Source: Neobacillus sp. PS3-12 (GTDB lineage Bacteria > Bacillota > Bacilli > Bacillales > Cytobacillaceae). From it: DNA of 64,000 nucleotides. The translations under genes and the position numbers were made by a program. This document shows, piece by piece, positions 9,101 to 36,072 of this stretch; position 1 is the first letter of the stretch; each line of letters begins with the position of its first letter. The stretch spans positions 3,942,001 through 4,006,000 of the forward strand of contig NZ_CP133268.1 in NCBI RefSeq assembly GCF_030915385.1, written 5' to 3'. The notes below the pieces were generated by a model. That model was given only the letters and a program-made list of their open reading frames with translations, did no database searches and was not told the origin of the DNA.

Positions 9101-10894
9101 CTGAACCGCATCTAATCTTGAAGCAATAATATCTGGATCTTCTTCACTTTCTTCTAGTATCCATTGTGCAATGGCAAAGTCTCGTAACAGAGAGTGGCGA
9201 AAATCGTAACGTGCCCGAGAGTTTACTCGTGTGATTAACCCCGACGATATTAATGATTCCAAAATTCCATCATCAATTTTCCCGGAGGGCACCCAATAAT
9301 TTTTATTAGAAATTTGTTCGCAAGCTTCCTTAAGAACCTTCCAAATTTGAAGATGTTGTTCATTTAGAACAACATGTTCCCAATAAGCATTTAATAACCC
9401 GTGCCTTGTCTGAACATATTCCCCTGTTATAGAAGAGCCTGCAAATACACGGATAAAAATATCTAGATAAAGAGGGATTCTAATCAGAGTTTTGATACCT
9501 TTGCTAACATCTCGACTTATACCGTGCTGTTTTAATACAGACCTTACGACAGTTTCTGGCCATTCAGTCAAAAATAGTTTCTGCCATGTTTGCAAATTTT
9601 CCTTTAGCTTTCCTTGCTCGTTCCAATCTACTTTACGACATGTGACTACTCCCAAAAATCCCTCTCGCTGACTAACTGTGTGTAAAAGGGAAGATAGCAT
9701 AGCTCGTTGTGGTTTCGCAATTTGATCTAATCCATCGACAAGTAGAATCAACCGTTTTTCGCATAATACTGCCAGATCTACTAATAAAAGAAGCGAACCT
9801 AAAAGAACAGATTTTTTCTCCTCTGATAGATAACTCACAACATCTTCGCTCATTAGCGAGAATATCTCAAATTTTGAAGAGGATGTATTTTTTAATTGTT
9901 TATTAAGCTCATATAAGGATCGTGATTTTCCATAACCAGCATCCGCTAAAAGAGCGATTGACTGTAGTTGTGTGTTCCAATCAATCTTAAAAATATTGTA
10001 TTGTACTTCTTTTAATGATTTAGGTTGCAGACCTACTTCTTTCGTGAATTTGCCTTTCCAGTTGCTTAAGCAACCATGGTTATATTCATTCTTGAGTAAC
10101 TGTGCAAGACGGAGGACATCGGAATCTTGTTCTAAAAATTTCTCTAATAATTTTATTTCACGAATCATTTGTGAAACAGTAAATAAATGAATTTTGTCAA
10201 CCTCACTTGTAGCACAGTGGTTTACCCAGCCTTCAAGCTGATGCCGTAAAACGGAAGGTTCTGTTATAAATGTCAGCCTTTCAATCATCGATTCAACTTT
10301 CTGCTCCAATTCTTTACCGGAAACTAGAAAAAGCTTAAAACGAGCCAGTACAGATAAAGCAAATTCTTTGGAAACTTTACTTACTAATTTTCTTTCCCCA
10401 GAAGCTTTGGCTGAACAAATCCAATAAAGAGCCTCTTCAATCAATTGTTTTTCTTTTGCAACACGTTTAGGAGGTTCAAGAGGGACCGTCCATTTATTAT
10501 AATCGTCAAAATTTGCTCGCTCGCTAAGCTGTGATAAAGCTTCAAATGCAGCAGGTAAATTATCTGAATTTATGACCAACCCTGGATATATGCTTTCTTT
10601 TTGTTCAACGTGAAAAATTTCTTCACGAATCCGCAGCCAAAAACTTACGCGGTCTTTTTGGCTAACAGCCCCGCTTTTCACCTCTAAAACAGTATGCTTT
10701 TCGTCTCCAATGACAAGAATGTCCCAATCTGTTGTCCCAGTAACTGGTGTGCGAGCTTCAACCCCAAATTGCTTTTCCTTATGTACCTTCCCTGCAATTT
10801 CATCTCTTTTTTGATTTGCAATATCCATAAAAACCTGGCGCAATAAATACAAATCTTGAAATCTAAACCCAAATCTTGATGTCTGTCCTGACAT
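6101..10894 (-). CDS. Nuclease-STAND NTPase, candidate Avs-type antiphage sensor
   Basis: The protein has 1597 residues from ATG 10894, which follows GAGAGGTGG; an upstream in-frame TTG is less likely. Residues ~1-120 look like a PD-(D/E)XK (Cap4/DUF4297-like) nuclease: FRFQDLYLLRQ, then TTDWDIL (D56/D58) and LEVKSG (E71, K73). A P-loop NTPase follows, with Walker A ADAGYGKS (~317-324), Walker B LILLVDGLDQ (~382-391) and a sensor-like VVTCRKVDW. The remaining ~1100 residues are helical and repeat-like without catalytic motifs, as expected for a ligand-sensing solenoid. This order (effector nuclease, STAND ATPase, long sensor) is that of Avs proteins, which oligomerise on phage proteins and degrade DNA. 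It stands alone and is transcribed toward 6101. The frame is intact over 4.8 kb. The Avs assignment is inference from architecture. Confidence 0.75.
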   Translation of the reverse strand: MSGQTSRFGFRFQDLYLLRQVFMDIANQKRDEIAGKVHKEKQFGVEARTPVTGTTDWDILVIGDEKHTVLEVKSGAVSQKDRVSFWLRIREEIFHVEQKESIYPGLVINSDNLPAAFEALSQLSERANFDDYNKWTVPLEPPKRVAKEKQLIEEALYWICSAKASGERKLVSKVSKEFALSVLARFKLFLVSGKELEQKVESMIERLTFITEPSVLRHQLEGWVNHCATSEVDKIHLFTVSQMIREIKLLEKFLEQDSDVLRLAQLLKNEYNHGCLSNWKGKFTKEVGLQPKSLKEVQYNIFKIDWNTQLQSIALLADAGYGKSRSLYELNKQLKNTSSSKFEIFSLMSEDVVSYLSEEKKSVLLGSLLLLVDLAVLCEKRLILLVDGLDQIAKPQRAMLSSLLHTVSQREGFLGVVTCRKVDWNEQGKLKENLQTWQKLFLTEWPETVVRSVLKQHGISRDVSKGIKTLIRIPLYLDIFIRVFAGSSITGEYVQTRHGLLNAYWEHVVLNEQHLQIWKVLKEACEQISNKNYWVPSGKIDDGILESLISSGLITRVNSRARYDFRHSLLRDFAIAQWILEESEEDPDIIASRLDAVQSSVIIRFGAQRALLEAISDVNELSHINGCTIEEYVFHASDHEKEQIARILGGLFPNMAMNIKEWNKKPKPNFVDSLIRSAQYHLNSDWVSVFSTWSSSKIWVEQQTWIGEGTIERLANYLEVIAGYRQNHANEGRNHIQLIANTILEWTKARKFQTELRKNDSWVMMHLIPTICRWANLELVIDWLSKEILRITGRTRHTALEYLVLLADRVQTEKKGYSKLLGELYCRLIGLSHDGHFPTLDKTIASENMLEYYVIDWSLLGTNSIKAPPLIDQLPCTFFPITLDLLLAIHLNENYIASYRQGSEVEVQSGKKLLDDQSGYYYWNSIYENDMEVKLLKGVHRRLKNWLATKPEFFIDQIIPFILNSPLASIRIFLIQLFLEEKNGEKLFSVVKEMILDERIYHVRGSHYWLVRTFQTMWDSVKEEEIMQIYSILINVSHSDYINGVYVAGILLSSISISDSEDLKSILKNFHEQEYSTILRDPREEIDGTVWKNVSSSDNKRYILSAVGEWDDPIDKELMIKFYERMNELVHPNNSPSVDKINNVIVLLEHVLPGLAASLNQLKINTWPIRELQHLLKSYHEKLETAANRAELLPIPAETSTMIAQIATALLQHSSLPETPENFSQGHSMMIPTDSWTESLFLLEQVMREDTIRNRDDIFDIVYTEIKKVYSQTLPYQQYLCVLAIPEWHWFRTDKKRVELLEELILGDTTTGSALSWGIRLLECFTDTQLDQVIRKLLSKKSIPFIDEFLTKLGKLVGYRALLTNHKNERLFARNLVDDIITKPSEFPLLDDDKNQVDFLTGIVFGLKEVACISVSNNQLAYEYGDWLLRIWEKLKQKESYREKDLILFAMHWIVNPEKEMKITDLLKWWQSIYSMVKRVIIEGERPEVFTVIFGISRNKIEMIHSIDAVELINLFILRILANPDELDARNPQKHDYHSWREVADYAAEVIHQISGRVELTRTEREQCYVLLSKLASQPIQSSVAERILIRLQVDIE

Positions 10895-10980
10895 AATCCC
10901 ACCTCTCAAATCATATTAGTTTCATTTTGAAGAAACGGTAGCGATAGATAAAGTTGATCAAAGGTCAATTAAATTTTAGC

Positions 10981-11802: not shown

Positions 11803-11989
11803 GATTCAATTCTCCTTCAATCCAATTAAAAAGCACCTTTTTTGATATCTTGATACGTTTTCCAATCGTAATAACATGAAACTTTCCGGAATGAACTAAC
11901 TCATAAGCTTGTTTTCGGCCAATTCCTAAAATTTGCTGCAAGTCAGATACATTTAACACATCTGGATAATTCTCATAGTCCTTGTACAT
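11795..11989 (-). CDS. Excisionase-type helix-turn-helix protein
   Basis: The protein has 64 residues. It matches the HTH_17/excisionase (MerR-like winged helix) pattern: LNVSDLQQILGIGRKQAYELVHSG is the HTH, followed by FHVITIGKRIKISKKVLFNWI, the wing and closing helix. It would bind DNA as an excisionase or small regulator for the element. It overlaps the rep gene by 17 bp and the downstream gene by 8 bp, so the three are co-translated. A decayed relative lies at 1793-1960. Confidence 0.85.
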   Translation of the reverse strand: MYKDYENYPDVLNVSDLQQILGIGRKQAYELVHSGKFHVITIGKRIKISKKVLFNWIEGELNHA

Positions 11990-12737
11990 AATCCATTATC
12001 TCCTTTACGTTCTCTACATAGTAATTGTGATACAGTATTTCACCGTACAGTTTGGAGTGGTATGAACCACTTTCAAGTTCTTTGATGTTGCATGAATTTA
12101 TGTGTTCGTAAAAGTCTTCCAAATTGTTAATAATGATACTTAAAGGCTTTTTTAATCCATGTGATCTTAAATATTTCTTCTTGCCTGTTAATCTTTCATC
12201 CATGATACCTTTATTTAGGTAATAGATTATTTTTTTATTAGTGGTTGGATTAGATTTAATGACTTTTCGGTTAATCCATCCAAAGTCCCATAGCATTTCA
12301 AGATCATGCAACGGTATTTTTATTAGGTCGCATACAAAATGATAATGGACTGCACCAGAGCCTTGAAATTCAGTTACACCAATATATTTGAATGGTGGTA
12401 ACTGTTTCTTTTCAAGATAATAATTAAGCCGCTTCTTAAAGTCGCAAAATTGTTTGTAACAAGCTTCTAAATCGGTAATGTCATGCTCCTTTGATGGCCT
12501 GAAGGTTAGTGTTAGAAATGCATATTGCTTGGGAAAATTGCATTCTAGTAGTCTCTTTATTTCAGCGCGAGCACGATTAATACTAATCTTTTTATTCGTA
12601 TCATGAATCATTTTGTCAACTGATCCATAAGGTTTACGCCCACCTAATGATTTTCTTGATACAAGAGGTGGAGTTGATTGTTGCGAAACTTCCATTAATC
12701 TCCCACTTAATATTACCTTTGTATAAGATTTATTCAT
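11973..12737 (-). CDS. HUH rolling-circle replication initiator
   Basis: The protein has 254 residues from ATG 12737, which is preceded by AGGAGG; an upstream in-frame start lacks a site. The three motifs of rolling-circle Rep proteins are visible in order: motif 1 YAFLTLTF; the HUH metal-binding motif GAVHYHFV; and the tyrosine motif KKIIYYLNKG, with the nicking tyrosine followed by a lysine three to four residues on. The protein would nick one strand at a double-strand origin and stay covalently bound to the 5' end. It heads a three-gene operon with an excisionase-like protein, which suggests an integrated plasmid-like or phage-satellite element. No integrase lies beside it. Confidence 0.8.
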   Translation of the reverse strand: MNKSYTKVILSGRLMEVSQQSTPPLVSRKSLGGRKPYGSVDKMIHDTNKKISINRARAEIKRLLECNFPKQYAFLTLTFRPSKEHDITDLEACYKQFCDFKKRLNYYLEKKQLPPFKYIGVTEFQGSGAVHYHFVCDLIKIPLHDLEMLWDFGWINRKVIKSNPTTNKKIIYYLNKGIMDERLTGKKKYLRSHGLKKPLSIIINNLEDFYEHINSCNIKELESGSYHSKLYGEILYHNYYVENVKEIMDYVQGL

Positions 12738-13628
12738 GTATCTTCCTCCTGTTACTTTCGTCAAATTAATCACTAAATATCATGTTATTTTTTTGCCACA
12801 TGGCTCTTTTGTTACACCGGTGTTTATTGAAGTACTTCCTAGTAATATTATGTATTAGTTTTGGAAATTTCTTAAGTTTACTCTTGAAGCAATATGAATG
12901 GATTAGGATTAATATAGGTGTAAATAGTAGATGTATCTTTATATATTGAATTGATGCTATATTTATTAACGAATTGCTCGTATTAGCTATAAATCCTAAA
13001 TACTAAGCCATTATGAACTAAAAAACCGACCAATCCGACTGAATAAGTGGACAAAGTATATTTAAAATATCGTGGAAGGAATATGCAAGGGATGATAAAG
13101 GGAGTTATTAAACCGTTATAAATATAGTGAAAATTGCTTTAACTACATAGACATTATTTTGAATCCTTTTTTAGATTCAATCGGCCGTAAACAGAATTTG
13201 TATAACTATTTTGGTTAATGCCTCCATTTACTCCCTCTCTTAATTTATCTTCCTAGCTGAAATACCTAAATTTCCCGTAAGTGGCAGAGGTAAAAGCAGG
13301 AAATAGTACCTAATATATCGAATGATAAAAGAAAAAAAGGTAAAGTGGTAAAATAATTTATTTTTAGAAACTATTTGTTTTAAGTATTTTTAATTTAGAT
13401 GTTACATTACATAAATATTTTGTTAACATTAAAAGGGTAATTGTAAAAAACTTTGGAAATACACCTTTTCATGTTATTCAAATTGAACATAATGATAGAA
13501 ATTTAATATGTTATTTTGTTGGTTTACGGAAAGGGATAGTGACTTTTGAATACTAGGGCAAAAGCGTCTATATAATCAATTGTGAAGTAAATATACAAAG
13601 TTTAAACGCATAAATGGGAGACTCTGTG
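12738..13628. other. Intergenic region between rep operon and hsd locus
   Basis: This 0.9-kb AT-rich region probably carries the divergent promoters and, if the element is alive, an origin. TTGAATCcttttttaGATTCAA near 13148-13170 is an inverted repeat. From ~13371 to 13556 a frame without any ATG, GTG or TTG start encodes a protein-like stretch (GNTPFHVIQIEHNDRNLICY), possibly the tail of a lost gene. Confidence 0.45.
13371..13556 (+). pseudogene. Possible start-less gene fragment
   Basis: About 60 codons are open up to TAG 13554. The end reads HVIQIEHNDRNLICYFVGLRKGIVTFEY, a believable protein C-terminus. No start codon lies in frame after the preceding stop, so it can only be a remnant. 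It sits just ahead of hsdM. The family is unknown. Confidence 0.25.
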
Positions 13629-15587
13629 ATGATTAATATTAGAAAACTTGAGACCGAATTATGGGAATCAGCCGATTTGCTACGACAAGGTTCAAAACTA
13701 ACTTCAAATGAATACTGTATGCCTGTTCTTGGATTAATTTTTCTTCGTTATGCATACAGCAGATTTAAGATGGTAGAAACAGAAATATTAAAAGATCGTC
13801 CTGTTCGCGGCGGTCGTGTGCTTCCAGTTGAACCAAAAGACTTTAAAACCAAAAATGCCTTATATTTACCGGAAGAAGCTAGATATAATTACTTGGTCAC
13901 TCTCTCGGATGATGTAAACATAGGGAAAGCTGTCAATGATGCAATGGAGTTAATAGAGCAGCAAAGTCCTCAACTGGTCGGTATTCTTCCAAAAACATAT
14001 ACTTCTTTTAGAGATGAACTTTTGCGAGAACTATTACGCATCTTTAATAATAAAACGCTAGATGAAGTAGACGGCGATATTATTGGAAGGATTTATGAAT
14101 ATTTCCTCAGCAAATTCGCTCCAGCTGTCGCTTCAGATGATGGTGTGTTCTTTACTCCTAAATCATTGGTACAAATGATTGTAAACGTAATCGAACCAAA
14201 ACGAGGCATTCTCCTTGATCCTGCTTGCGGAAGTGGCGGTATGTTTGTACAAACTGGTGATTTCGTAAATGCGAACGGAATTAGTGCTAACACTGCTATG
14301 ACATTTTATGGTCAGGAAAAAGTTGAATACAATTCAAAGTTGTGTCTGATGAACATGGCAGTACATGGACTAAACGGAAACATCAAGTCCGGTGACGAAG
14401 CCAATACCTTTTATAGCGATGCGCATAATCTTGAAGGCAAATGTGATTATGTAATGGCAAATCCGCCTTTTAATGTAGACAAAGTTAAATCAGAAAGTGC
14501 ATACAATGCTGGTAGATTGCCATTCGGTTTACCGAGTGTTAATGACAAGAAGGAAGTGTCCAATGCCAATTATCTTTGGATATCCTATTTTTATGCCTAT
14601 CTTAATGAAACTGGCAGAGCTGGCTTTGTAATGCCGGCTTCAGCTACCGATAGTGGAGGAAAAGACAGGGAAATTCGCAAACAATTGCTTGAAAATGGCT
14701 CGGTAGATGTGATGCTTTCAGTAGGAAATAACTTTTTTTATACGAAATCTTTGCCGTGCACCTTATGGTTCCTTGATAAGGCTAAGAACGACGATATTAT
14801 TGACAAAATGTTGTTTATCGATGCCAAAAATTATTACACCGTTGTTGATAGAACTTTGAATGAATGGAGTCCATGGCAGCTTAAAAACCTCAATGCAATT
14901 GTATGGCTGCATCGTGGAGAAACTGAGAAATATTTAAATTTACTCAAAGAGTATAAGCAAGAAATTTTGGGACGACTCACGGTACTCTTAGTAACTATGG
15001 AAAATGACCTTGCACTTTTGGAACGTTTCGCTGATCCTCTTAAAGAATTATATAAGGAAATCCAAACTGTATTAAAAGAAGCTTTCACATTGCAGAATTT
15101 ATATACTTTGAATGACTTTCTTAAGAAATATATATCGGCCATGAATGAACAGTCAAAGGCTCTTTATTCTTATGGGGATGGTTTGGAAAAAGATGAGGTT
15201 AAAACGTATGTGCAAAAAATTAGTCAGGTCTTAACTACATGGACGCAATTTAAAAGGGGTACATCAGCTACTTTTGAATCAACAATTCAAGAAATTAAAA
15301 CCTGTCGTAAAATAATCAAGGATGCTAAATGGCTTACTGAAAAATTTGGCGACGGGACTTATCAAGATGTGCTCGGTTTGTGTAAAAGTGCTTCACATTC
15401 TGAAATTGAAGAGAAAAATTATTCCTTTACTCCCGGTGTGTATGTGGGTGTTGCCCCTGTAGTTGAGACAGAAGATAATTTTGCGGAAAGAATGGTTGAG
15501 CTTCACAATGAACTTCTAACTCTTCAGACAGAAGAAAACGAGTTAATGGATAAAATTTTAGCTAACTTCGCGGGGTTGGGTTTATGA
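13629..15587 (+). CDS. hsdM: Type I restriction-modification methyltransferase subunit
   Basis: The protein has 652 residues from ATG 13629, spaced 8 bases after GGGAG; an ATG 15 bases upstream is possible. HsdM transfers a methyl group from S-adenosylmethionine to adenine in the target recognised by HsdS. The N-terminal helical domain (ELWESADLLRQGSKLTSNEY) is followed by the N6-adenine methylase core with DPACGSGG (motif I, ~196) and NPPF (motif IV, ~278). The typical GRIYEYFLSKF precedes motif I. The C-terminal ~200 residues form an unusually long, coiled-coil-rich extension. It overlaps hsdS by 4 bp (ATGA), so the two subunits are translationally coupled. Confidence 0.95.
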   Translation: MINIRKLETELWESADLLRQGSKLTSNEYCMPVLGLIFLRYAYSRFKMVETEILKDRPVRGGRVLPVEPKDFKTKNALYLPEEARYNYLVTLSDDVNIGKAVNDAMELIEQQSPQLVGILPKTYTSFRDELLRELLRIFNNKTLDEVDGDIIGRIYEYFLSKFAPAVASDDGVFFTPKSLVQMIVNVIEPKRGILLDPACGSGGMFVQTGDFVNANGISANTAMTFYGQEKVEYNSKLCLMNMAVHGLNGNIKSGDEANTFYSDAHNLEGKCDYVMANPPFNVDKVKSESAYNAGRLPFGLPSVNDKKEVSNANYLWISYFYAYLNETGRAGFVMPASATDSGGKDREIRKQLLENGSVDVMLSVGNNFFYTKSLPCTLWFLDKAKNDDIIDKMLFIDAKNYYTVVDRTLNEWSPWQLKNLNAIVWLHRGETEKYLNLLKEYKQEILGRLTVLLVTMENDLALLERFADPLKELYKEIQTVLKEAFTLQNLYTLNDFLKKYISAMNEQSKALYSYGDGLEKDEVKTYVQKISQVLTTWTQFKRGTSATFESTIQEIKTCRKIIKDAKWLTEKFGDGTYQDVLGLCKSASHSEIEEKNYSFTPGVYVGVAPVVETEDNFAERMVELHNELLTLQTEENELMDKILANFAGLGL

Positions 15588-16696
15588 TTTTTACTGATTT
15601 AATTGAGTTAAACCCGACAATTCCGTTTGAAAAGGGGAAGGAATACCCATTTATAGAAATGGCCAATGTAGATACTTACTCAAGAAGTCCAAAAGCTGTT
15701 GAAACTAAGAGATATTCTTCTGGGGTCAAGTTTCAAAAGGGAGACACAGTAATAGCAAGGATTGAACCTTGCCTTCAAAACGGAAAAGGATTTTTTGTAA
15801 ACGAGTTGACATGTGGTTTCGGTTCAACTGAATTTCTCGTTTTTAGACCTAAATCCGAGGATGTGGATAATCGTTTTCTCTACTACTTTTTGCAGACTGA
15901 CTATATACGAAAAAGTATGATCGCATCAATGACAGGTGCAACGGGTCGACAAAGAGTAAATAATAAAATTTTTGATTCCCTTGACATTACAATTCCAGAC
16001 ATTAGTACCCAGTGCCGTATTGCAGATATTCTCTCATCCTACGATGACTTAATTGAAAACAAGCAAAAACAAATTAAGTTGCTAGAGGAAGCTGCCATGG
16101 GGTTATATAAAGAATGGTTTGTAAAATTAAGATTTCCGGGATATGAGACCACCATTATTAAAGATGGAATACCGGATGGATGGAAAAAACTACCTTTGTC
16201 TGAAATATCGTCATTTAAATATGGAAAAATGCCTAAAAAAGAAAAAATTAGAGATAAGGGGTTTCCAGTATATTCAGGTTATAGAATCGTTGGATATTAT
16301 GATGAGTTTATGTTTGAAAATGAAATGCTTATTGTTATCGCTAGAGGTGTAGGGGGAACAGGAGATGTAAAATTATCTCCAAAATACTGTTATTTAACTA
16401 ATTTATCAATAGCATTTTTATTAAATGAGGAAACATATAAATACTACCTCTTTCAGTGTTTTAATCATAAAAATCTTAGAGAATTAGACACTGGGGCTGC
16501 ACAATCGCAAATAACCATTGATAATTTGAGTAGATTCAAAGTGTTAATTCCTTCAGATGATTTATTAATAGAATTTAATGGTTTTATTTTCCCAATTCGA
16601 AGCAAAATTGACATTCTAGAGCAACAAATAAAAAAATTGACCGAGGCTCGCGACAAACTACTCCCTAGACTTATGAGCGGTGAAATAGAAGTGTAG
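15584..16696 (+). CDS. hsdS: Type I restriction-modification specificity subunit
   Basis: The protein has 370 residues. HsdS holds the two target-recognition domains that define the bipartite DNA site. The two conserved helical spacers are visible: the central one ILSSYDDLIENKQKQIKLLEEAA...LYKEWFVKLRFPG and the distal one LEQQIKKLTEARDKLLPRLMSGEIEV. Recognition domain 1 spans ~1-140 and domain 2 ~200-330. It starts at the ATGA overlap with hsdM and is followed 15 bp later by hsdR. As usual for the family, the recognition domains are the variable part, so the target site cannot be read from sequence. Confidence 0.93.
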   Translation: MIFTDLIELNPTIPFEKGKEYPFIEMANVDTYSRSPKAVETKRYSSGVKFQKGDTVIARIEPCLQNGKGFFVNELTCGFGSTEFLVFRPKSEDVDNRFLYYFLQTDYIRKSMIASMTGATGRQRVNNKIFDSLDITIPDISTQCRIADILSSYDDLIENKQKQIKLLEEAAMGLYKEWFVKLRFPGYETTIIKDGIPDGWKKLPLSEISSFKYGKMPKKEKIRDKGFPVYSGYRIVGYYDEFMFENEMLIVIARGVGGTGDVKLSPKYCYLTNLSIAFLLNEETYKYYLFQCFNHKNLRELDTGAAQSQITIDNLSRFKVLIPSDDLLIEFNGFIFPIRSKIDILEQQIKKLTEARDKLLPRLMSGEIEV

Positions 16697-16711
16697 AAAG
16701 AAGGTCTTATA

Positions 16712-19700
16712 ATGAGCTGGGAATACTCCGAGAACATGTTAGTTCAAAATAGTTCTGGTAATCTACTACATGATACTTTGGGTTGGGATGTCGTCTATGC
16801 ATACAATAAGGAGATATTGGGTGAAGGTGGAACAGTAGGCAGAAAAACATATAAAGAAATTGTCCTGGTGCGTTATCTCAAAAGAGCCCTTTTTGAGAAC
16901 AACGACTGGCTTACGGACGAATTATGTGAAGAAGCCATTAAAAACCTGATGGCATATTCTTCTTCCAATTCTCTGATACAGATCAACCAAGAGAAATATG
17001 CTATGTTAAAAGATGGCATTCCTATTCAATTTAAAAAAACTAACAATGAATTTGAAATTCGGCGTGTTAAGGTATTTAACTTCAAAGAGCCGGAGAAAAA
17101 TCATTTTCTAGCGGTAAAGGAAATGAAAATTCATGGTGATCTTTATCGTCGAAGAACAGATATTGTCGGGTTTGTTAATGGTATTCCACTTCTCTTTATT
17201 GAGCTTAAGAAGCAAAATGTAGATGTAAGAGATGCCTACGACTGTAACTATAGAGATTATCAAGATACAATTCCTCAATTATTTCATTTCAATGCCTTCC
17301 TGATGCTTTCAAATGGATTGGAAGCAAAGGTTGGTACGCTCGGAAGTAAGTATGACTTTTTTCACGAATGGAAACGTTTAAATGAGGAAGATGTCGGTTC
17401 TGTTGATTTAGAGACCATGCTTCTCGGTATTTGCCAAAAGAAAAATTTTATGGACTTATTTGAAAATTTCATACTCTTCGATAATTCAGGTGGTAGAACA
17501 GCAAAGATATTGGCGCGCAACCACCAGTTTCTTGGAGTAAACGATGCCATAGAGTCATATAAAGCACGCAAGATAAGAAAAGGAAAGTTGGGGGTATTTT
17601 GGCATACTCAAGGTAGTGGAAAAAGCTATTCTATGGTTTTTCTTTCACAAAAAATTCGCAGGAAATTCACAGGTTCTCCTACTTTCGTTATCTTGACTGA
17701 CCGAGATGAACTTAATAAGCAGATTAGTGATACGTTTGAGGCTTGTGGATGTCTAGGTAATGTAGAAGCTAAGCAGTTTATTCCTTCAAGTGGTACAAGG
17801 TTAGTAGAAATGCTTAAAGGCAATCCAAGTTTTATTTTTACGCTCATTCACAAGTTTAATCAAACTGATGTTGAACCGATTATTCCAGATCATGACATCA
17901 TTGTTTTGTCTGATGAGGCACACCGGACACAAAATGGTATTTTCGCTGATAATATGTGTGCATTACTCCCAACAGCATCAAGAATAGGATTTACCGGCAC
18001 ACCTCTTTTCGCATATGACAATATTACTGAACGTACTTTTGGAAGCTATATATCAATTTACGATTTCAAAAGAGCAGTCGAAGATGGCGCAACTGTACCA
18101 CTTTATTACGAGAATCGAGCAGACATGCTAGATATTAAGAATCCTGAAATTAATGATGAGTTATTAAATGCCATTGAAGCAGCAGATTTGGATGTAAACC
18201 AGCAGGCAAAATTGGAACGTGAAATGGCCAAAGATATTCATATTCTTACTAGTAAGAAACGTCTAGATGAAATTGCACAAGATTTTGTTAATCACTATAC
18301 CGAACTATGGACAACCGGCAAGGCAATGTTCGTTTGTGTTAATAAGATAACTGCTGTTCGAATGTACAACCTTGTTCAGGAATACTGGGATCGGAAAATT
18401 GCAGAAGTTGAAAAGGAACTTGAAGGGGCCACACAGCAAGAGCACATGGAAATCAGTCGTAAGCTACAATGGATGAAAGAGACAGAAATGGCTGTCATCA
18501 TTAGCCAAGAACAGAATGAAATTGCCACATTTCAGAAATGGGGATTGGATATAAAACCACACCGCGAGAAGATGGAGAAACGAGAAATGGATAAAGATTT
18601 TAAAAATCCTGATCATCCATTCCGTATTGTGTTTGTCTGTGCAATGTGGCTAACTGGTTTTGATGTAAAATCATTATCTACTATCTATATGGACAAACCA
18701 TTGAAGGCCCATACTCTGATGCAAACCATTGCCCGCGCTAATCGCGTCTACGAAGGCAAGAGTAATGGTTTAATCGTGGATTATGTTGGAGTTGTCAAAG
18801 CCCTTAGAAAGGCACTTGCTGATTATACTGCTAAAAAGGGAGGAGATACCTCTGACCCAACGCCTGACAAAGAAAAGTTACTGTTGCGAATTTTTGAATT
18901 ACTAAAAGAGATTACGGATTACATGGCTGAGAAAGAGTTCAATTTGTCAAATCTTGTCCGTTCATCTGACTTTGTGAAGCTCGCGTTAGTAAGAGAAGGG
19001 GCCAATGTGATGTGTGTGTCTGCTGAAGTTAAGAAACGGTTTGAAATCATGGCAAGAGAACTATTCAAGCTATTTAAATATGTTGAGCGCAATGAAGTGT
19101 CTGATGACCATAGAGCGTATAAGAATGCAATAAGTGCAGTTTATGACCAGATGCAAGAGAAACGAAAACATTCCGACACTAGTGATCTGATGATTCAACT
19201 TCATAATATTGTCAGCGAATATATAATTGTTCTCGACGATTTTAAAGTATCTGAAGAAACTAAGAGGTTTGATATCAGTCGCATTGATTTTGAACGCTTG
19301 CAACAAGAATTTGCTAAAGCACGCAACAAGAATCTTTTGCTGAAAGACTTAAAAGACCTAGTTGAAGATCGTCTTGCAGAAATGATGAATCGAAATCCTG
19401 CTCGAATCAATTATTACGAACGTTACCAGAAAATCATTGAGGAATTTAATGCCGAACAGGATAAGGCAGTAATTGAAAAGACCTTTATTGATCTCACCAA
19501 TTTTGTAAATGATCTCAATGATGAAGAAAAACGCTATGCTCGTGAAGGGTTCGATAGTGATGAGGAATTAGCAATTTATGATCTTCTCTTGAAAGATTCA
19601 TTGACTACGAATGAAATTAAGAGAATAAAGCAGTTATCAAAAATATTACTGGAAAAAATTAAGGTAAAAATTGCTGAACTTGATCACTGGACAGATAAAG

Positions 19701-19840
19701 AAGAGACACAAGCTGCTGTAGATGTTCTAATAAGGGATACATTATGGAGTGAATTACCTGAAAGTTATGATGACTCGTCACTTACTTATTATCGACAAAA
19801 AGTATATGAATTTGTTTATACAGCATACCGAGCATCATGA
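16712..19840 (+). CDS. hsdR: Type I restriction endonuclease subunit
   Basis: The protein has 1042 residues and starts after AAGAAGGTCTTATA. HsdR translocates DNA with ATP and cleaves where translocating complexes stall. The N-terminal nuclease motif is RRRTDIVGF (D150) and FIELKKQN (E164, K166). The motor has Walker A TQGSGKS (~299-305), the DEAH box DEAHRT (~401) and FTGTPL (motif III). Later helicase motifs include FVCAMWLTGFDVKSLSTIYMDKP and QTIARANRVYEG. The length is normal and the frame intact, so the hsdMSR locus looks functional. A terminator follows within 15 bp. Confidence 0.95.
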   Translation: MSWEYSENMLVQNSSGNLLHDTLGWDVVYAYNKEILGEGGTVGRKTYKEIVLVRYLKRALFENNDWLTDELCEEAIKNLMAYSSSNSLIQINQEKYAMLKDGIPIQFKKTNNEFEIRRVKVFNFKEPEKNHFLAVKEMKIHGDLYRRRTDIVGFVNGIPLLFIELKKQNVDVRDAYDCNYRDYQDTIPQLFHFNAFLMLSNGLEAKVGTLGSKYDFFHEWKRLNEEDVGSVDLETMLLGICQKKNFMDLFENFILFDNSGGRTAKILARNHQFLGVNDAIESYKARKIRKGKLGVFWHTQGSGKSYSMVFLSQKIRRKFTGSPTFVILTDRDELNKQISDTFEACGCLGNVEAKQFIPSSGTRLVEMLKGNPSFIFTLIHKFNQTDVEPIIPDHDIIVLSDEAHRTQNGIFADNMCALLPTASRIGFTGTPLFAYDNITERTFGSYISIYDFKRAVEDGATVPLYYENRADMLDIKNPEINDELLNAIEAADLDVNQQAKLEREMAKDIHILTSKKRLDEIAQDFVNHYTELWTTGKAMFVCVNKITAVRMYNLVQEYWDRKIAEVEKELEGATQQEHMEISRKLQWMKETEMAVIISQEQNEIATFQKWGLDIKPHREKMEKREMDKDFKNPDHPFRIVFVCAMWLTGFDVKSLSTIYMDKPLKAHTLMQTIARANRVYEGKSNGLIVDYVGVVKALRKALADYTAKKGGDTSDPTPDKEKLLLRIFELLKEITDYMAEKEFNLSNLVRSSDFVKLALVREGANVMCVSAEVKKRFEIMARELFKLFKYVERNEVSDDHRAYKNAISAVYDQMQEKRKHSDTSDLMIQLHNIVSEYIIVLDDFKVSEETKRFDISRIDFERLQQEFAKARNKNLLLKDLKDLVEDRLAEMMNRNPARINYYERYQKIIEEFNAEQDKAVIEKTFIDLTNFVNDLNDEEKRYAREGFDSDEELAIYDLLLKDSLTTNEIKRIKQLSKILLEKIKVKIAELDHWTDKEETQAAVDVLIRDTLWSELPESYDDSSLTYYRQKVYEFVYTAYRAS

Positions 19841-19852
19841 TGAAATAAGAGT

Positions 19853-19877
19853 GGAGGAGATTTATCTTCTCCTTTTT
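19853..19877 (+). terminator. Terminator of the hsd operon
   Basis: GGAGGAGA-TTTA-TCTTCTCC forms an 8-bp stem with one wobble pair, followed by T5, directly after the hsdR stop codon. Confidence 0.75.
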
Positions 19878-20292
19878 GTTTACACAAAAATTTTAAATCT
19901 AATTTATATTGTGGTTACCAGAAATGTAAAGTAGAACGATAATTAACATTGATGAATTGTATCAAAAATACTCATAATATTGTTACAGTTATAAATTAAT
20001 GGTTTTTTTCAGCAAACAGGTCAATATCTTTTATCGAGCGTTATGTAATTTTGCTTTTAGTAAAAAATAATTTGGTTTTTAACATTAACAAAAATTTTTA
20101 ATGCGAATGATATAATTAAAGTATTATTTTCAAGGAAACAGTTATTGCTATTCTTCAAAAATCAAATTCTTATAGGGCACTTTTAAAAACAAAAAAACAA
20201 ATTTTCTAAAAGACTTTTGATTAATAATAATGGGAGGTTTTTAATGTATATTGAGTAATAAAAAATCCAAAAATTGAAAGGATTAATGGATT
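19878..20292. other. Upstream region of the AAA-subtilase pair, with a mini-ORF
   Basis: The region is AT-rich and likely carries the promoter of the next operon (a TATAAT-like hexamer at ~20110). At 20244-20258 GGGAGG precedes a 4-codon ORF (ATG TAT ATT GAG TAA), 34 bp before the ATPase start. It may be a regulatory upstream ORF or chance. Confidence 0.4.
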
Positions 20293-21300
20293 ATGAATGC
20301 TGATTTGTATAAAAGACTTTTTAAAGCAATTTTCTCTGAGGATATAATTGCTTTAAAAAAAATAGCAGATGTCATTATTTCAAGTGAACGGCAGAACAAC
20401 CATAATGTTTTAGCTAATTCTTTAGAAAAAATCAAGTACAATGAAAAACCCAAGGTGAAAAACGGATTTGCTAAATTCATAAATGAAAAAAACAGTAGTA
20501 GTAGTAGTAGTATGGGCGCTTTACCAACTAGTAAACGAAATAATATGCAGTTGGTTTCATATGTTCCACGTAATCAATTAAAGCATCATATGATTCTAAA
20601 TAATGAAATTGAAAATAAACTTTTGTGTATTGAAAAGGAATATATGGCGAAAGAACGTCTTGCCAAGTTTAACCTAACACCAAAGAAAAAGGTTCTTTTG
20701 TATGGAGCACCTGGATGTGGGAAGACTCTTGCAGCGGAGAGATTGGCATGGAATTTAGGGCTACCTTTATTAAAGGTTAGGTTTGATTCATTATTGTCAT
20801 CGTATTTTGGGGAATCAGCTTCAAATTTACGAGCTGTTTTTGATTTTTGTAAAAACGAACCTGTTGTTTTGTTACTTGATGAATGCGATTTTATTGCAAA
20901 GTCTAGAATAACTAGCCAAGATGTTGGAGAGGTGCCTCGAATTGTAAATATGCTGCTCATGCTATTGGATGAATATAATTCACCGGGTTTAGTAGTTGCT
21001 ACTACAAATTTGAAAGTATCTCTTGATGAAGCACTATTTAGAAGATTTGATGTTGTCATTGAGATACCTAAACCATCTGTTGATGAAATAAAAAAATTAC
21101 TTTATACTACATTTTCTGCAATGAATGTTAGCAAGGATATAGATTGGGATTCTCTTGCTAAACAACTTAATGGACATTCTGCAGCTAATATCGTTTCAAT
21201 TGCACAAAATGCTGCTAAAAGTTGTATCTTGGAAGGCTCAAATATCGTGAAAAAAGAGCATATTTTAGGAGTAATTAAAGATATATCTATGAAATATTAG
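20293..21300 (+). CDS. AAA+ ATPase paired with subtilase
   Basis: The protein has 335 residues from ATG 20293, preceded by AAAGGA. The classical AAA+ core spans ~95-330. Walker A is GAPGCGKT (~138-145), Walker B LLLDECD (~193-199), sensor 1 VVATTN (~235), and an arginine finger RRF at ~250. A small helical lid follows (AANIVSIAQNAAKSC). The N-terminal ~90 residues are helical and end in a serine run encoded by six AGT repeats. The pore-like FGESASNLRAVF resembles substrate-unfolding AAA+ proteins. The next gene, an S8 protease, starts 12 bp downstream, so the ATPase probably regulates or feeds that protease. Such pairs recur in defence islands; this role is inferred. Confidence 0.88.
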   Translation: MNADLYKRLFKAIFSEDIIALKKIADVIISSERQNNHNVLANSLEKIKYNEKPKVKNGFAKFINEKNSSSSSSMGALPTSKRNNMQLVSYVPRNQLKHHMILNNEIENKLLCIEKEYMAKERLAKFNLTPKKKVLLYGAPGCGKTLAAERLAWNLGLPLLKVRFDSLLSSYFGESASNLRAVFDFCKNEPVVLLLDECDFIAKSRITSQDVGEVPRIVNMLLMLLDEYNSPGLVVATTNLKVSLDEALFRRFDVVIEIPKPSVDEIKKLLYTTFSAMNVSKDIDWDSLAKQLNGHSAANIVSIAQNAAKSCILEGSNIVKKEHILGVIKDISMKY

Positions 21301-21312
21301 TGAGGTGGAACC

Positions 21313-23883
21313 ATGCCAAATAGAGACGATTTTTCGCATCTTCCTTTACCATTAATTTTAACTGGCAAACCAAAAATAAGAGCCGTTGTACCACCAGATC
21401 CAAGAACTTTAGAAAACAGGGCAAATAGAAAAAATCATGGAGGGTATATTAAAGGGCAAACTTCACGGTTATCAAAATTTTGGAAGGAAAAACAAGAAGA
21501 GCGAATAAAAGAGCATTTACCAGAAATAAAAACTGGTATTCCTATTCTATTAGAAATTGATCCTAACAGTGATGTAAGTTTTCTAAAGGGCTTGGGTTTT
21601 GAAGTTATTTCTGAACTTGAAAATGGCTATGTAATTGTTTCAAATGGAGATACTGATTTTGCAGTTTTAAATCAAAAGACAGATGAGTTTATAAATGAAG
21701 TTTCGACAAGGTGTAATACACCTGCTCGTGTGTATGCTTTACACGAAGATGATTCTAGGTTAAAAAAAATCTTTGGAAAAAACTTAATGAAAATCTGGGA
21801 AACAATAAAAGATGACTATAAATATGACGTAGATGTCAGTATTAGTTGTTCAGGAAATATATTTAATTTGGAACAGCCACCACAAAAAGAAGAGGGAATG
21901 AATGAGCAAGAATATAAAGCTAGTGTAAGATATAGAAATTGGGAAAGAAAGTATTACCAGGCTTACGACGAGTGGGATCAATTAAAATTTGAACGTGAGC
22001 ATCAATTCGAAAGTTTTATCCACCATTATAATGGTAAATTTATTGGATCTTATGTTGATAATGATCCCATTTTTTTAGAGCTATGTGATAGCTTCTCAGT
22101 AAGAGTAAATGTAAATGGAAAATGCTTAAAGGATTTAGTATATAACTTTTCACCCATATTTGAAATTGAATATGTTGGTGATTTATGCATTGGAAAATCA
22201 ATGGAATCTCCTTTGGGTGAGGTAAATCCTAGTGTTACAATACTTCCTCCTGATGATGATGCTCCTATTGTTGCAGTTATTGATAGTGGAATCGAGGAAG
22301 CACATAAATACATAGAACCAGCAGTACTTGTTGCTGATTCAAAATGTTATGTTCAGGGAACAACATCTGTTTCAGATGAAGTGAAAGATGGAGGGCATGG
22401 TACAAGAGTAGCGGGGGCGATCCTGTATCCAGCTGGAATACCACAGGAAGGTACATATAAATTACCTTGTTACATTAGAAATGCCCGTGTTTTAAATGAA
22501 AACAACGAGCATTCGGTACAGTGCAGTATTTTTCCTCCACTTATTATAAAAAAGGTTGTAGATGAGTTTTCAAAAGTAGCTCAAAGAAAGACTAAGATTT
22601 TTAATCATTCTATCGCTGAAATTGGTTCATGCGAAATAAAACATATGTCACCATGGGCTGCAGAAATTGATGTGCAAAGTTATGAAAATGACATTCTATT
22701 TATTCAAGCCACTGGTAATATTTATGATAATACAATAAAAGATTTCTACAAAGATGGGTTTACGTATCCAAAGTATTTGTTTGAAGAACAATCTAGAATA
22801 GCAAATCCGGCACAGAGTATGCAGGCCTTAACAGTTGGATCTATTTCACATTCCAATTATGAAACAGAAGATGCAATAAGCATTGGATTTGAAAATGAAC
22901 CTTCTGCATTTTCACGTACAGGTGCAGGGATTTGGAATTCTATTAAGCCTGATGTAGTAGAATATGGTGGAACATGGGTGAAAAACAAAGAAGGTGAAGA
23001 AATACAACTCACAACACCTCCAGAAGTTTGTCCTGAGCTGCTAAGAACTTCTCCTGAAGGTCCCGCATTTTCCAAAGATGCAATAGGTACATCTTTTGCT
23101 GCACCTAAAGTTGCATATATTGCTGCAGAAATTCAAAAATTATTTCCTACATCTTCAGCATTATTATATAGAGCCTTGATAGCACAATCTGCCAGATGGC
23201 CGATCAGTGTAAATAAAAAGTTTGAAAATGCACAGGACATTATTAGACATGTTGGATATGGTCTTCCCAATGTTATCAGAGCAACTCAAAATAATGAATA
23301 TCGTATTACTTTGGTTACAGAGGAAACTTTATTTTTATCTGAAGGACAGGCTCATATTTTCAAAATACCTATACCAGAAGAATTGTCTGCTGTTGGTGAA
23401 GATTTTGATATTCTTATAGAAATTACATTATCTTATGCGGCGAAACCAAGAAATACAAGGAGAACGATAAGTAGATATTTATCTACTTGGCTCGACTGGA
23501 GATGTAGTAAAATAGGGGAAAGTATTGATTCTTTTGCAGAAAGAATTTTAATTACTGGTAGCTCAGTTGATGACGATGGAAACTTTAATTGGGTCATTGG
23601 TGAGCAAAGTAATCACGGTCAAGCAAAAGATTTTTCACGTTCTTATAGCTCACTCCAAAAAGATTGGACAATTATTAGGTCAAATCAGCTAACTGACGGT
23701 TTTTGTGTTGCAGTTCGTGGACATAAAGGTTGGGATGCGAATGAGCCAGCTAAATATTCTTTAGTAGTTAGTTTCGAAGCGATAAATCAAGATATAGAAA
23801 TATACGAAAAAATACGTAATCTAATTGAAGTTGAAATTGATAACTTGGAACAAGAGATTGAAGTGGAAAATGTTGATAGGTAG
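21313..23883 (+). CDS. S8 family subtilisin-like serine protease
   Basis: The protein has 856 residues; its ATG follows GTGAGGTGGAACC. It has no signal peptide or membrane anchor, so it is probably cytoplasmic. The S8 triad is present in order: Asp in VAVIDSGI (~323), His in GGHGTRVAG (~362), and Ser in GTSFAAPK (~594), with the oxyanion Asn in FIQATGN. About 310 residues precede the catalytic domain and ~230 follow it. They are not recognisable and may sense a trigger or bind the ATPase. It is co-transcribed with the AAA+ gene. It lies immediately downstream of a type I restriction locus and 10 kb from a STAND nuclease, so a protease-based antiphage role is plausible but unproven. Confidence 0.9.
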   Translation: MPNRDDFSHLPLPLILTGKPKIRAVVPPDPRTLENRANRKNHGGYIKGQTSRLSKFWKEKQEERIKEHLPEIKTGIPILLEIDPNSDVSFLKGLGFEVISELENGYVIVSNGDTDFAVLNQKTDEFINEVSTRCNTPARVYALHEDDSRLKKIFGKNLMKIWETIKDDYKYDVDVSISCSGNIFNLEQPPQKEEGMNEQEYKASVRYRNWERKYYQAYDEWDQLKFEREHQFESFIHHYNGKFIGSYVDNDPIFLELCDSFSVRVNVNGKCLKDLVYNFSPIFEIEYVGDLCIGKSMESPLGEVNPSVTILPPDDDAPIVAVIDSGIEEAHKYIEPAVLVADSKCYVQGTTSVSDEVKDGGHGTRVAGAILYPAGIPQEGTYKLPCYIRNARVLNENNEHSVQCSIFPPLIIKKVVDEFSKVAQRKTKIFNHSIAEIGSCEIKHMSPWAAEIDVQSYENDILFIQATGNIYDNTIKDFYKDGFTYPKYLFEEQSRIANPAQSMQALTVGSISHSNYETEDAISIGFENEPSAFSRTGAGIWNSIKPDVVEYGGTWVKNKEGEEIQLTTPPEVCPELLRTSPEGPAFSKDAIGTSFAAPKVAYIAAEIQKLFPTSSALLYRALIAQSARWPISVNKKFENAQDIIRHVGYGLPNVIRATQNNEYRITLVTEETLFLSEGQAHIFKIPIPEELSAVGEDFDILIEITLSYAAKPRNTRRTISRYLSTWLDWRCSKIGESIDSFAERILITGSSVDDDGNFNWVIGEQSNHGQAKDFSRSYSSLQKDWTIIRSNQLTDGFCVAVRGHKGWDANEPAKYSLVVSFEAINQDIEIYEKIRNLIEVEIDNLEQEIEVENVDR

Positions 23884-24277
23884 GATAAAAAACGGTTGTT
23901 AAAATATGTTGAGCCAGGAATAGTCTTAAGAAGAGATTTAAAGTCGACTTCCAGACTCTTTAGGTTTACTTACAAAAAAATGTTAGGCTCATATAATTGA
24001 AAAAGATGAATAAATTTACTTTTTAATATGTTTTATGAGGTAAGTAAAACTACATCATTTATTAAAATTCTACTATTAGCAGTCAAAATCTATGAAGTGC
24101 GGTAACATTTGGGATGCTACAAAGCATCTGTGGCATCATTTTGGCAACAAACTAAAAATAACTATGGAATATTAACGATTGATTATTTATGAAAAAATGC
24201 CCAAGAATCCTTGATTATGAAGATTTTTGGGCATTATCGGTAACAAGAGGTAACAGTAAATAATTTACTACCCGACC
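23884..24277. other. Spacer between protease and first att-like repeat
   Basis: No gene is seen. The only clear structure is the minus-oriented terminator at 24192-24235. Confidence 0.6.
24192..24235 (-). terminator. Minus-strand terminator next to the integrase tail
   Basis: TGCCCAAGAATC pairs with GATTTTTGGGCA, and read on the minus strand it ends in T6. It lies downstream of the integrase remnant at 24519 and probably terminated that gene. Confidence 0.65.
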
Positions 24278-24320
24278 TTGACAGGGTGGGGGTCACAGGT
24301 TCAAGCCCTGTACAGGTCAT
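24278..24320 (+). repeat. att-like 43-bp repeat, copy 1 (tRNA 3' end)
   Basis: This is one of three identical 43-bp copies (with 26414 and 34985). It contains a T-arm (ACAGG-TTCAAGC-CCTGT) preceded by a GGGTC variable loop and followed by ACAGGTCA, so it reads as the 3' half of a tRNA gene. The 5' half of a tRNA is absent upstream. This is typical of an attachment site left when an element integrates into a tRNA 3' end. The isoacceptor cannot be fixed from the fragment. Confidence 0.75.
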
Positions 24321-24366
24321 TGGGTGCCAAACCCGTAGAACCCTTCGGAACAAAGGGTTCTTTGAT

Positions 24367-24398
24367 AAAAGACTGCTTCTTCGGGAGTGGTCTTTTTT
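24367..24398 (+). terminator. UUCG hairpin terminator after att copy 1
   Basis: AAAAGACTGCTTC-TTCG-GGAGTGGTCTTTTTT forms a stem with a UUCG tetraloop and T6. A second small hairpin (GAACCC/GGGTTC) precedes it. The same pair follows att copy 2. Confidence 0.75.
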
Positions 24399-24518
24399 AT
24401 TGTTTTCTCCTGTATTTTTATACACTGCACAATGACTGCACAGAAATTGCACGAGACCGTCATCCTGTCTTACCGTGTCAATGCCTCCAAACATTCCATT
24501 TTGTATTTTTTTTGTCCA

Positions 24519-26413: not shown

Positions 26414-26456
26414 TTGACAGGGTGGGGGTCACAGGTTCAAGCCCTGTACAGGTCAT
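26414..26456 (+). repeat. att-like 43-bp repeat, copy 2
   Basis: Identical over 43 bp to copies 1 and 3. The following ~310 bp (terminators, TGCACAA repeats and integrase tail) also match copy 1 with ~90% identity, so the whole junction was duplicated or laid down by a second related element. Confidence 0.78.
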
Positions 26457-26654: not shown

Positions 26655-27359
26655 TTACGTCCAGAATTGGTTATCGAAGCGATCAGCTGTTTTTCGCTGC
26701 ATTTCTTCATTGGTATGGGAGTAAATATCAAGGGTAATCCCAACTCTTGAATGCCCTAATCGTTCACTGACCACTTTTGGATTTTCACCCATCCGCATTA
26801 ACATCCTTGCGTGTGTATGCCTCAAATTGTGAAATGGAATCTCCGGGACATTGGCTTTTTTCATTAATATTTTATATTTGCGCAGTAGATTGCGCGGTTC
26901 AAGATAACCACCCGTTTTCGATGGGATCACTAAACCCAGCTTATTTTCCTTTTGCTCTTGCTTGTATTTCTTTAAAACATATAGAGCACTGGGAGAGAGA
27001 AAGACATCACGGTTTGAATTAGCAGTTTTGCCATCCTTGATAAACAAACCTTTTGACTTTGTCCGGGTTAACGATTCCTCCACATGGATGACACCTTTTT
27101 CTAAGTCAACGTTTTTCCATCTTAGCGCAAGAATTTCTCCACGGCGCATTACTTTTGATTAATCCCCATTTAACTGCCTTCTGCAAAGATTTAGATATGA
27201 CATCGTGAATTTTGCGAACAGTAGCAGGTGCCATTCCAGTTCTGCTTCTTTTTTCGTGAGAAAGCCGCCACGGTAAACTTGCTTACGTTTCCCTGTGACT
27301 GGGTTTTTTCCGATATCGGTACGAAAAGCCCAAGTTTTTCCGGTTTTGATGACTGACAT
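26655..27359 (-). pseudogene. int: Tyrosine (phage-type) integrase with internal deletions
   Basis: Read from 27359 on the minus strand, the first ~38 residues are the arm-binding domain (KTGKTWAFRTDIGKNPVTGKRKQVYRGGFLTKKEAE). The frame then shifts to APATVRKIHDVISKSLQKAVKWGLIKSN, the end of the core-binding domain. It shifts again into the catalytic domain MRRGEILALRWKNVDL, with R in MRRGE, HNLRHTHA (H-x-x-R), LGHS and the nucleophile tyrosine in LDIYSH. The pieces between are missing, so at least two deletions (near 27240 and 27150) inactivate it. It is transcribed toward att copy 2, the usual geometry for an integrase beside its attachment site. Confidence 0.85.
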
Positions 27360-34984: not shown

Positions 34985-35027
34985 TTGACAGGGTGGGGGT
35001 CACAGGTTCAAGCCCTGTACAGGTCAT
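34985..35027 (+). repeat. att-like 43-bp repeat, copy 3
   Basis: Identical over 43 bp to copies 1 and 2, but the following DNA differs: a different terminator, with no integrase tail. Arm-like TGCAC motifs appear about 97 bp downstream, as in the other copies. It marks the right boundary of the scar zone, or the left boundary of one more lost element. Confidence 0.78.
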
Positions 35028-35080: not shown

Positions 35081-35181
35081 ATTTCGTTCCTTTTTTGGAC
35101 TCATCCACCTAATCAGGTGAAATTGCACATTTTTTGTACAAATGCTGCACTTTTATTTTTGCATGATTGCGTATATTTTTT

Positions 35182-36072
35182 TTAGCTTGTTAGGGAGGTA
35201 TCACCTATTTCATTGTCAAATTGTTTTAAAAAATCGACAAATGCGTTAACTGCAGCCAATGAAAGCGACCTTTCTCTATAAAGGATCCATGTGTTTCTTG
35301 TCAAAGGTTTATTATTCTTTTTGGGTAATTTTATTTTGTGAACGTCGTCGTCTTTTTTTAAACAAATTGATGGAAGAATGGCATAACCTAAACCCATGAG
35401 AACCATTTCTTTACAAGTATCAATTCTGTCTACCTCCATTCTCACGATAGGTGACTGGTCAAACGTTTCCTGCCACCAATTATCGATTAATGTCTTTTGG
35501 GTTTGGTCTGTTTCATAATTAATTCTTGGCAGACTTGGTAATTCCCTTATATTTTGTATTGGTTTTTTCGATACAATTAGCATAGGCTCTTGACGAAATA
35601 AATATTTTTCTTCTGGCCAGATATGATTTCCTCTGACTATACCAACGTGAACTTCTTCTTTATGAAGCAAGTGGTTAATTTCAGCGCTCCACCCAGTTTT
35701 GACATTAACTTCTACATTAGGATACTGACTTATGAATTCATTTAAAATAGCAGGAAGTTCGTATCTCGCAAAAATGCCGGAAACTCCGATTCTTAATGCT
35801 CCTCTAATTTCCTTGCCCATGTTTTGTACGAATTCTTTTGTATTCCGAAGCTGCAAGGTCATGCTTCTAGCATATTGGGCTATATATTCGCCTTGTGCTG
35901 TGAATTCTACTCCTCTTTTTCCTCTGGCAACAATCATTGTTCCGAATTCCTTTTCCAATTGCTGTAAACGATAGGTCAACGCAGGTTGAGAAATGTAAAG
36001 TTTTTCTGCGGCCTTCGTAATATTTCTCTCCTCAAAGATTGTTTGGAGAATGACCCAATCCTTCTCATCCAT
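35182..36072 (-). CDS. LysR family transcriptional regulator
   Basis: The protein has 296 residues from ATG 36072, preceded by AGGGGGAA. The N-terminal winged helix is canonical: ILQTIFEERNITKAAEKLYISQPALTYRLQQLEKEFG, then V.FTAQGE. Residues ~90-290 are the periplasmic-binding-like effector domain (LRIGVSGIFARYELPAIL). It is transcribed divergently from the tricarboxylate transporter at 36560 across a 487-bp spacer. The usual LysR logic therefore makes it the likely activator of the citrate lyase/tricarballylate genes, responding to a tricarboxylate. Confidence 0.93.
   Translation of the reverse strand: MDEKDWVILQTIFEERNITKAAEKLYISQPALTYRLQQLEKEFGTMIVARGKRGVEFTAQGEYIAQYARSMTLQLRNTKEFVQNMGKEIRGALRIGVSGIFARYELPAILNEFISQYPNVEVNVKTGWSAEINHLLHKEEVHVGIVRGNHIWPEEKYLFRQEPMLIVSKKPIQNIRELPSLPRINYETDQTQKTLIDNWWQETFDQSPIVRMEVDRIDTCKEMVLMGLGYAILPSICLKKDDDVHKIKLPKKNNKPLTRNTWILYRERSLSLAAVNAFVDFLKQFDNEIGDTSLTS

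Follow-up and report, generated by a model that had tools for sequence, protein, structure and literature searches.

The window analysed here, a 64,000-nucleotide stretch of the Neobacillus sp. PS3-12 chromosome (NZ_CP133268.1, positions 3,942,001 to 4,006,000), carries two plus-strand genes, ATPase gene first, that are separated by 12 bp. The first, ietA (20293..21300), encodes a 335-residue protein with a Pfam AAA domain (E 3.2e-29), and the second, ietS (21313..23883), encodes an 856-residue, probably cytoplasmic subtilase in which Pfam Peptidase_S8 covers residues 316-650 (E 1.4e-29) and about 521 residues lie outside the domain. An earlier note on this DNA, which had described a tightly linked AAA+ ATPase and S8 subtilase with some 540 unassigned flanking residues, is borne out on the linkage and was near the mark on the length. 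PADLOC recognises the ATPase as IetA (PDLC02196, E 1.1e-72, residues 11-326), the antitoxin-like partner, and the subtilase as IetS (PDLC02198, E 4.5e-60), the toxin-like partner. We are fairly confident that the two genes make up an IetAS carried on a chromosomal island, IetAS being a phage-defence and toxin-antitoxin system that has already been described. The earlier proposal of a protease-based defence module thus stands as far as the type of family is concerned, but a new kind of defence module was rejected since PADLOC already assigns both genes to IetA and IetS.

With IetAS as known from the ietA and ietS genes of Agrobacterium pTiC58, from Gao_ietAS and from the PADLOC and NCBIfam (IteA/IteS) models, the pair shares the order ATPase-subtilase, tight spacing, both domain types, intact catalytic residues and a homologous N-terminal region. 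A profile-profile comparison with ten other IetS proteins matched 742 columns (E 2.3e-82), and the N-terminal 305 residues alone matched with E 4.1e-9 and a probability of 96%, compared with at most 0.3% for ten column-shuffled controls of the N-terminal profile. By these profiles the protein and other IetS have homologous N-termini.

Several points weigh against the assignment. The best NCBIfam models are 'anti-phage ATPase IteA' (NF042959) and 'S8 family anti-phage peptidase IteS' (NF042956), and the scores fall short of their cut-offs, at 212 against 510 bits and 134.6 against 900 bits, respectively. The pair is therefore a divergent member outside the curated equivalog and, being so far under the cut-offs, does not allow anti-phage function to be transferred by identity. 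In addition, the literature searched held no assay of any member of this IetAS subfamily, and in a study of a mycoplasma relative taken up below the other assays in E. coli and B. subtilis were rather inconclusive overall (PMC8562856; here and below, cited papers are represented by their available parts).

The earlier note had proposed a search for conserved two-gene neighbourhoods, and this bore the pairing out. A scan of GTDB genomes recovered 77 IetS loci of the subfamily, the nearest (74%) in Paenibacillus abyssi, from Bacillota-type, cyanobacterial, planctomycete, acidobacterial, proteobacterial and Bacteroidota-type organisms (phyla inferred from organism names). A locus was scored as paired when an IetA open reading frame (ORF) on the same strand ended less than 400 bases before IetS, and 69 of the 77 loci were judged, leaving out seven whose IetS ORF is preceded by fewer than 700 bases and one (L114) without an intact IetS ORF. 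All but one of these 69 carry IetA immediately 5' of IetS, 67 by ORF calling and the 68th by tblastn, and the single unpaired locus (L110) is an ietS fragment alone. The gap between the genes is -11 to 26 bases in 65 of the 67 ORF-called loci and 218 and 268 in the other two. Ten of ten IMG/VR loci also carry the pair. An apparent orphan IetS in Tautonia (L061) was rejected as such, because tblastn places IetA at 3596-4597, where it is masked by an overlapping minus-strand ORF.

Conservation was scored in alignments of 59 rows, in which the window's pair was joined by 58 of the 67 ORF-paired loci; since the 58 were picked for full length, invariance holds for this filtered set. In IetS, D324, H362, N469 and S594 are invariant (59/59) and form the active site, and from the subtilase motifs DSG, GHGT and GTS we take D324, H362 and S594 to be the catalytic triad. 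S594 (codon 23092-23094), which the earlier note had picked out as the catalytic serine, lies in the GTS motif. In IetA, residues G138, G143, K144, D196, E197, N239, R250 and R251 are likewise invariant in all 59 rows, and Walker A and Walker B are intact.

The AlphaFold model of IetA (pLDDT 79.6) predicts a three-helix N-domain at about residues 1-50, a disordered linker at 51-73 (pLDDT below 50) and an AAA part at about 88-335, and the top rows of a Foldseek search with it are p97, 26S proteasome ATPases, FtsH and PAN. The serine linker of AGT repeats that the earlier note had reported is present at 20494..20512 (plus strand), where TRF finds 6.3 copies at 100% match encoding six serines. 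The longest serine run anywhere in each of the 58 other aligned IetA proteins is 2 or 3, and the tract has expanded locally, within a variable linker predicted to be disordered, and is no hallmark. A role for the repeat as a phase-variation switch was rejected, since three-base units leave the frame unshifted and the 58 aligned relatives are without such a tract.

The AAA part also bears a pore-loop-like YFGE at 171-174, in which residue 171 is aromatic throughout (tyrosine in 41 rows, phenylalanine in 18) and G173 and E174 are invariant. Together with the nearest folds, this would suit a genuine unfoldase role for IetA, with proteins of phage or host being passed to IetS for degradation in the manner of an FtsH- or Clp-like machine. 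We regard such a machine as distinctly unlikely. The pair falls outside the FtsH/Clp type of AAA+ protease, in that ATPase and peptidase are separate genes and the peptidase belongs to S8 and resembles free-standing subtilases, and the available accounts of tested relatives describe a protease that is toxic when the ATPase is absent and neutralised when it is present, the reverse of what a feeder requires.

The first 60 residues of IetS reach a 19-residue Kyte-Doolittle mean of at most 0.68 and so hold no long hydrophobic stretch, which fits a cytoplasmic protein, as the earlier note had supposed. A sequence search of solved structures returned only short matches to ordinary subtilisins, with E up to 0.01. 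The AlphaFold model (mean pLDDT 87.1, pTM 0.90) divides the protein into four parts, all on the plus strand. Module 1, residues 71-145 (21523..21747), is alpha/beta by the secondary structure of the model, and its strand-helix order, similar to that of module 2, may resemble a ferredoxin-like propeptide. Module 2, residues 169-290 (21817..22182), was delimited with VIA-align against 3whi_B and has extra residues between 183 and 240. It is followed by the catalytic subtilase domain, residues 314-660 (22252..23292), supported by Pfam, VIA-align and the invariant residues, and by a predicted C-terminal beta domain, residues 661-823 (23293..23781), which VIA-align places as in KP-43 and Tk-SP.

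Foldseek and VIA-align relate the IetS model to solved subtilase structures. Unprocessed pro-subtilisin E (3whi_B) aligns with the model over 330 residues (rmsd 3.3, Z 26.2), model residues 169-659 corresponding to chain residues 6-365. Mature subtilisins align over about 240-260 residues, so about 80 propeptide residues seem to lie within the 3whi_B superposition, and IetS residues ~169-290 therefore appear to occupy the propeptide position in the model; this placement is read from the alignment lengths and range ends of a whole-model alignment and not from coordinates. ProN-Tk-SP (3afg_A) aligns over 460 residues, from 103 to 839 (Z 26.8, rmsd 5.6), and KP-43 (1wmd) over 390 residues ending at residue 821 (Z 28.1), in a VIA-align list that covered little of IetS outside residues 306-668. 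Identity in the structural alignments with these three enzymes is 19-23%. All three share the subtilase core with IetS, and their propeptide and/or C-terminal beta domain appears to be placed as in the model. They are secreted enzymes not known to have an ATPase partner. The predicted layout suggests a propeptide-like self-inhibition of IetS that would act as a second, internal lock. The linker at residues 291-313, which is 22-24 residues long in 59/59 rows and variable in sequence, may at a guess be a processing site.

Module 2 also distinguishes this group from other IetS. It spans 99-127 residues in the 59 members here and 74-92 in the ten other IetS, and the segment corresponding to positions 183-240 is 43-65 residues long in the former as against 19-25 in the latter. 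Thus about 30 extra residues, predicted to be helical in the protein studied here, set the subfamily apart. Total length is no discriminator, at 856 residues here and 751-865 in the ten others.

In its genomic setting, ietAS adjoins the edge of a mobile island of about 63.5 kb that is integrated in tRNA-Val(GAC). The right attachment site is at 24278..24320 (plus strand), where 43 bp repeat the 3' part of this tRNA gene; it lies 394 bp 3' of ietS, and ietAS is the last gene pair before it. The intact tRNA-Val(GAC) (L118, 1473-1545) is on the same chromosome about 63.5 kb to the left of the copy and is followed by a tyrosine integrase gene (L120, 7956-9131). The repeat recurs at 26414 and at 34985, which points to serial or stacked integrations at one tRNA gene. 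An integrase-like remnant was seen by eye between repeat copies, at 26655-27149. In a second genome of the genus (G001) the tRNA-Val(GAC) is intact and the left flank is common to both (75% over 421 columns). Past the 43-bp core, that genome matches the flank beyond 34985 in one 72-column block (79%, E 8e-13), and window positions 35173-36100 have no match at the site; three weaker matches lie on other contigs. An empty site in the second genome is thus likely but short of proven, as its right flank rests on the 72-column block.

The pair itself looks like a moving unit. When window positions 19701-24400 were compared with the 22.6-kb Paenibacillus abyssi locus, a single block of DNA similarity was found (20292-23867, 76%), which is confined to the two genes; the DNA 5' of ietA has no BLAST match there at E 1e-3. 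An IetS match is present in 472 of 72,556 plasmid records and covers 80% or more of the protein in ten, and the IetS of five of these ten plasmids (two from Leptolyngbya, and one each from Synechocystis, Burkholderia and Planctomyces) are 41-42% identical to the protein studied here. On the Planctomyces plasmid (L038, 7974-10529) IetS, with its triad intact, stands directly 3' of ParA and ParB genes. At this locus, which is outside the 69 counted above, no IetA was seen within 18.5 kb, and the IetS looks truncated and apparently orphan, about its first 43 residues being missing. Phage records match IetS in ten of 50,697 cases, none over 80% of its length.

A position as the last genes before the attachment site, together with the plasmid matches, would suit a pair that is mainly an addiction module keeping the tRNA-Val island, with phage defence secondary or absent. 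The available accounts of relatives add to this, in that stabilisation of pTiC58 and of Salmonella Genomic Island 1 (SGI1) is reported (PMC8562856, PMC5006074). The SGI1 system, SgiAT, is likewise an AAA ATPase and subtilase pair on a chromosomal integrative element, with the subtilase S025 as toxin and the ATPase S026 as antitoxin and homology to pTiC58 IetS and IetA (PMC5006074). It differs in belonging to an enterobacterial mobilizable element, and we liken it to the present pair by description and not by alignment. However, in the part of that report available, the SGI1 operon placed with its own promoter on a test plasmid gave no post-segregational killing, yet it promoted SGI1 maintenance (PMC5006074). 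Restriction and other defence-type genes on the island and around relatives also speak against addiction as the main role, which we consider a serious possibility though not a probable one. Addiction and defence roles are compatible with each other.

Among 193 genomes of the same bacterial family, 33 have an IetS match, in 20 of the 33 solely at E above 1e-5 and mostly over 50-150 residues. Such weak matches to other subtilases might be taken to mean that IetS is an ordinary protease, either housekeeping or secreted, served by a maturation ATPase. This is hardly credible given the lack of a hydrophobic N-terminus, the location on a mobile island and the patchy presence of the genes: at E below 1e-8 only 13 of the 193 family genomes match, the present genome included, and one of two genomes in the genus carries the pair. 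The 12 stronger family loci (L005-L016) comprise nine with an adjacent IetA on the same strand, one in which the genes are convergent, and two with no IetA within the short stretch examined. The convergent IetA and IetS genes (L007, 318-3846) have no operon arrangement.

Immediately upstream of the pair in the window are hsdM, hsdS and hsdR of a type I restriction-modification system (13614..19840, plus strand; ORFs, PADLOC and Pfam). The earlier note had placed the pair directly after this locus, and the order is as described, but hsdR and ietA are 452 bp apart, with a terminator-like hairpin (19853..19872, plus strand) in between. The hairpin is weak, as the three sites found against a mean of 1.9 in shuffled sequence are near the chance number and no more than suggestive. 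A promoter scan found 19 against 23.5 expected.

Whether relatives lie in defence islands had been raised as a check, and the answer favours such a setting. Neighbouring proteins (124, at most two per side) were taken from the 31 of 77 loci in which the pair is complete and flanked on both sides by 5 kb or more, and 120 control proteins came from 20 regions at hand-picked round coordinates on 10 of the 31 contigs, more than 40 kb from IetAS. The two sets were made with slightly different ORF callers, and either may contain false ORFs. At E 1e-15 or better, the neighbours matched 250 PADLOC models (of which the best 25 were considered) and the controls eight, figures that count models and not genes, as one methyltransferase matches many. 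The most frequent Pfam families (E 1e-5) among the neighbours were ResIII and DEAD, with five each, followed by N6_Mtase, Methylase_S, Resolvase, Phage_integrase, Recombinase and HsdM_N, with three each. None of these eight is among the best 25 control families (the comparison took in the best 25 families of each set, out of 123 and 187). Restriction, integrase and resolvase families are thus commoner near relatives than in the same-contig controls. Since single families match just 3-5 of the 124 neighbours, the signal is an enrichment and no rule, and it argues against homologues lying mostly outside defence islands, even if each family is found in few loci.

Other genes of the island may be noted here. 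Two adjacent GmrSD_N genes (L122, 6383-9508), the second also with GmrSD_C, are candidates for modification-dependent restriction. A 1602-residue protein encoded on the minus strand of the window (6101-10909) has, by eye, a P-loop-like stretch and a nuclease-like N-terminus. It has no Pfam or NCBIfam match at E 1e-3 and a weak PADLOC match to PDC-M54A (E 4.9e-6), and is a possible STAND-type defence protein. A replication-associated protein of the REP_ORF2-G2P type (11973-12773, minus strand, E 7.3e-15) suggests an element able to replicate.

The toxin and antitoxin roles, the protection from phage and its trigger would be carried over from tested relatives. In TA132/3 of Mycoplasma mycoides subsp. 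capri, likewise a chromosomal pair of a 353-residue AAA ATPase antitoxin and a 757-residue subtilisin-like toxin, which resembles ietAS by description and not by sequence comparison, the subtilase T133 reduced E. coli counts by 5 logs in one set-up and by 3 in another, and co-expression of A132 neutralised it completely (PMC8562856). The pair is described there as functional in E. coli and M. capricolum, with no phage assay in the part available (PMC8562856). As the protease of tested relatives is toxic without the ATPase and is neutralised by it, the ATPase here would act as a brake; the 'ATP-gated' protease that the earlier note had envisaged is unsupported. The available literature also counts ietAS (Gao_ietAS) among B. 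cereus group defence systems (PMC11811056) and among systems triggered by the phage core replication machinery (PMC10732053), and describes its mechanism as awaiting description as of 2023 (PMC9958689). Our own search, which left most subscription papers outside, found no account of the IetAS mechanism.

With family membership, intact active-site and ATPase residues, the conserved pairing, the predicted fold and domain layout and the island-edge position established here, the most likely reading by analogy is a protease toxin that an ATPase antitoxin restrains until infection releases it. IetS would be made as a zymogen-like, probably cytoplasmic subtilase with its N-terminal module in the position of a subtilisin propeptide. 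IetA, whose predicted fold is nearest to p97, proteasome ATPases and FtsH, would bind IetS and keep it harmless, direct binding being an assumption. Phage infection would upset this check, the activators being, by the ietAS literature, phage replication proteins, and the freed IetS would cut cell proteins, so that growth stops or the cell dies before phage release. A fuller two-lock version for the subfamily, in which module 2 shuts the active site, IetA as a p97-like remodeller holds the zymogen, and a phage replication protein engages the extra helical stretch so that the propeptide is pulled off and the protease freed, is unlikely to be right.

New here are the domain reading of IetS, the divergent subfamily with a longer module 2 and the island context. 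One member was scored against NCBIfam, and if other subfamily members score alike the equivalog cut-offs would miss them. The domain reading, with its apparently docked propeptide-like module, provides a concrete, testable model of how the toxin may be restrained. If the two-lock version were true, it would make IetAS of this subfamily a bacterial switch in which an AAA remodeller governs a protease toxin.

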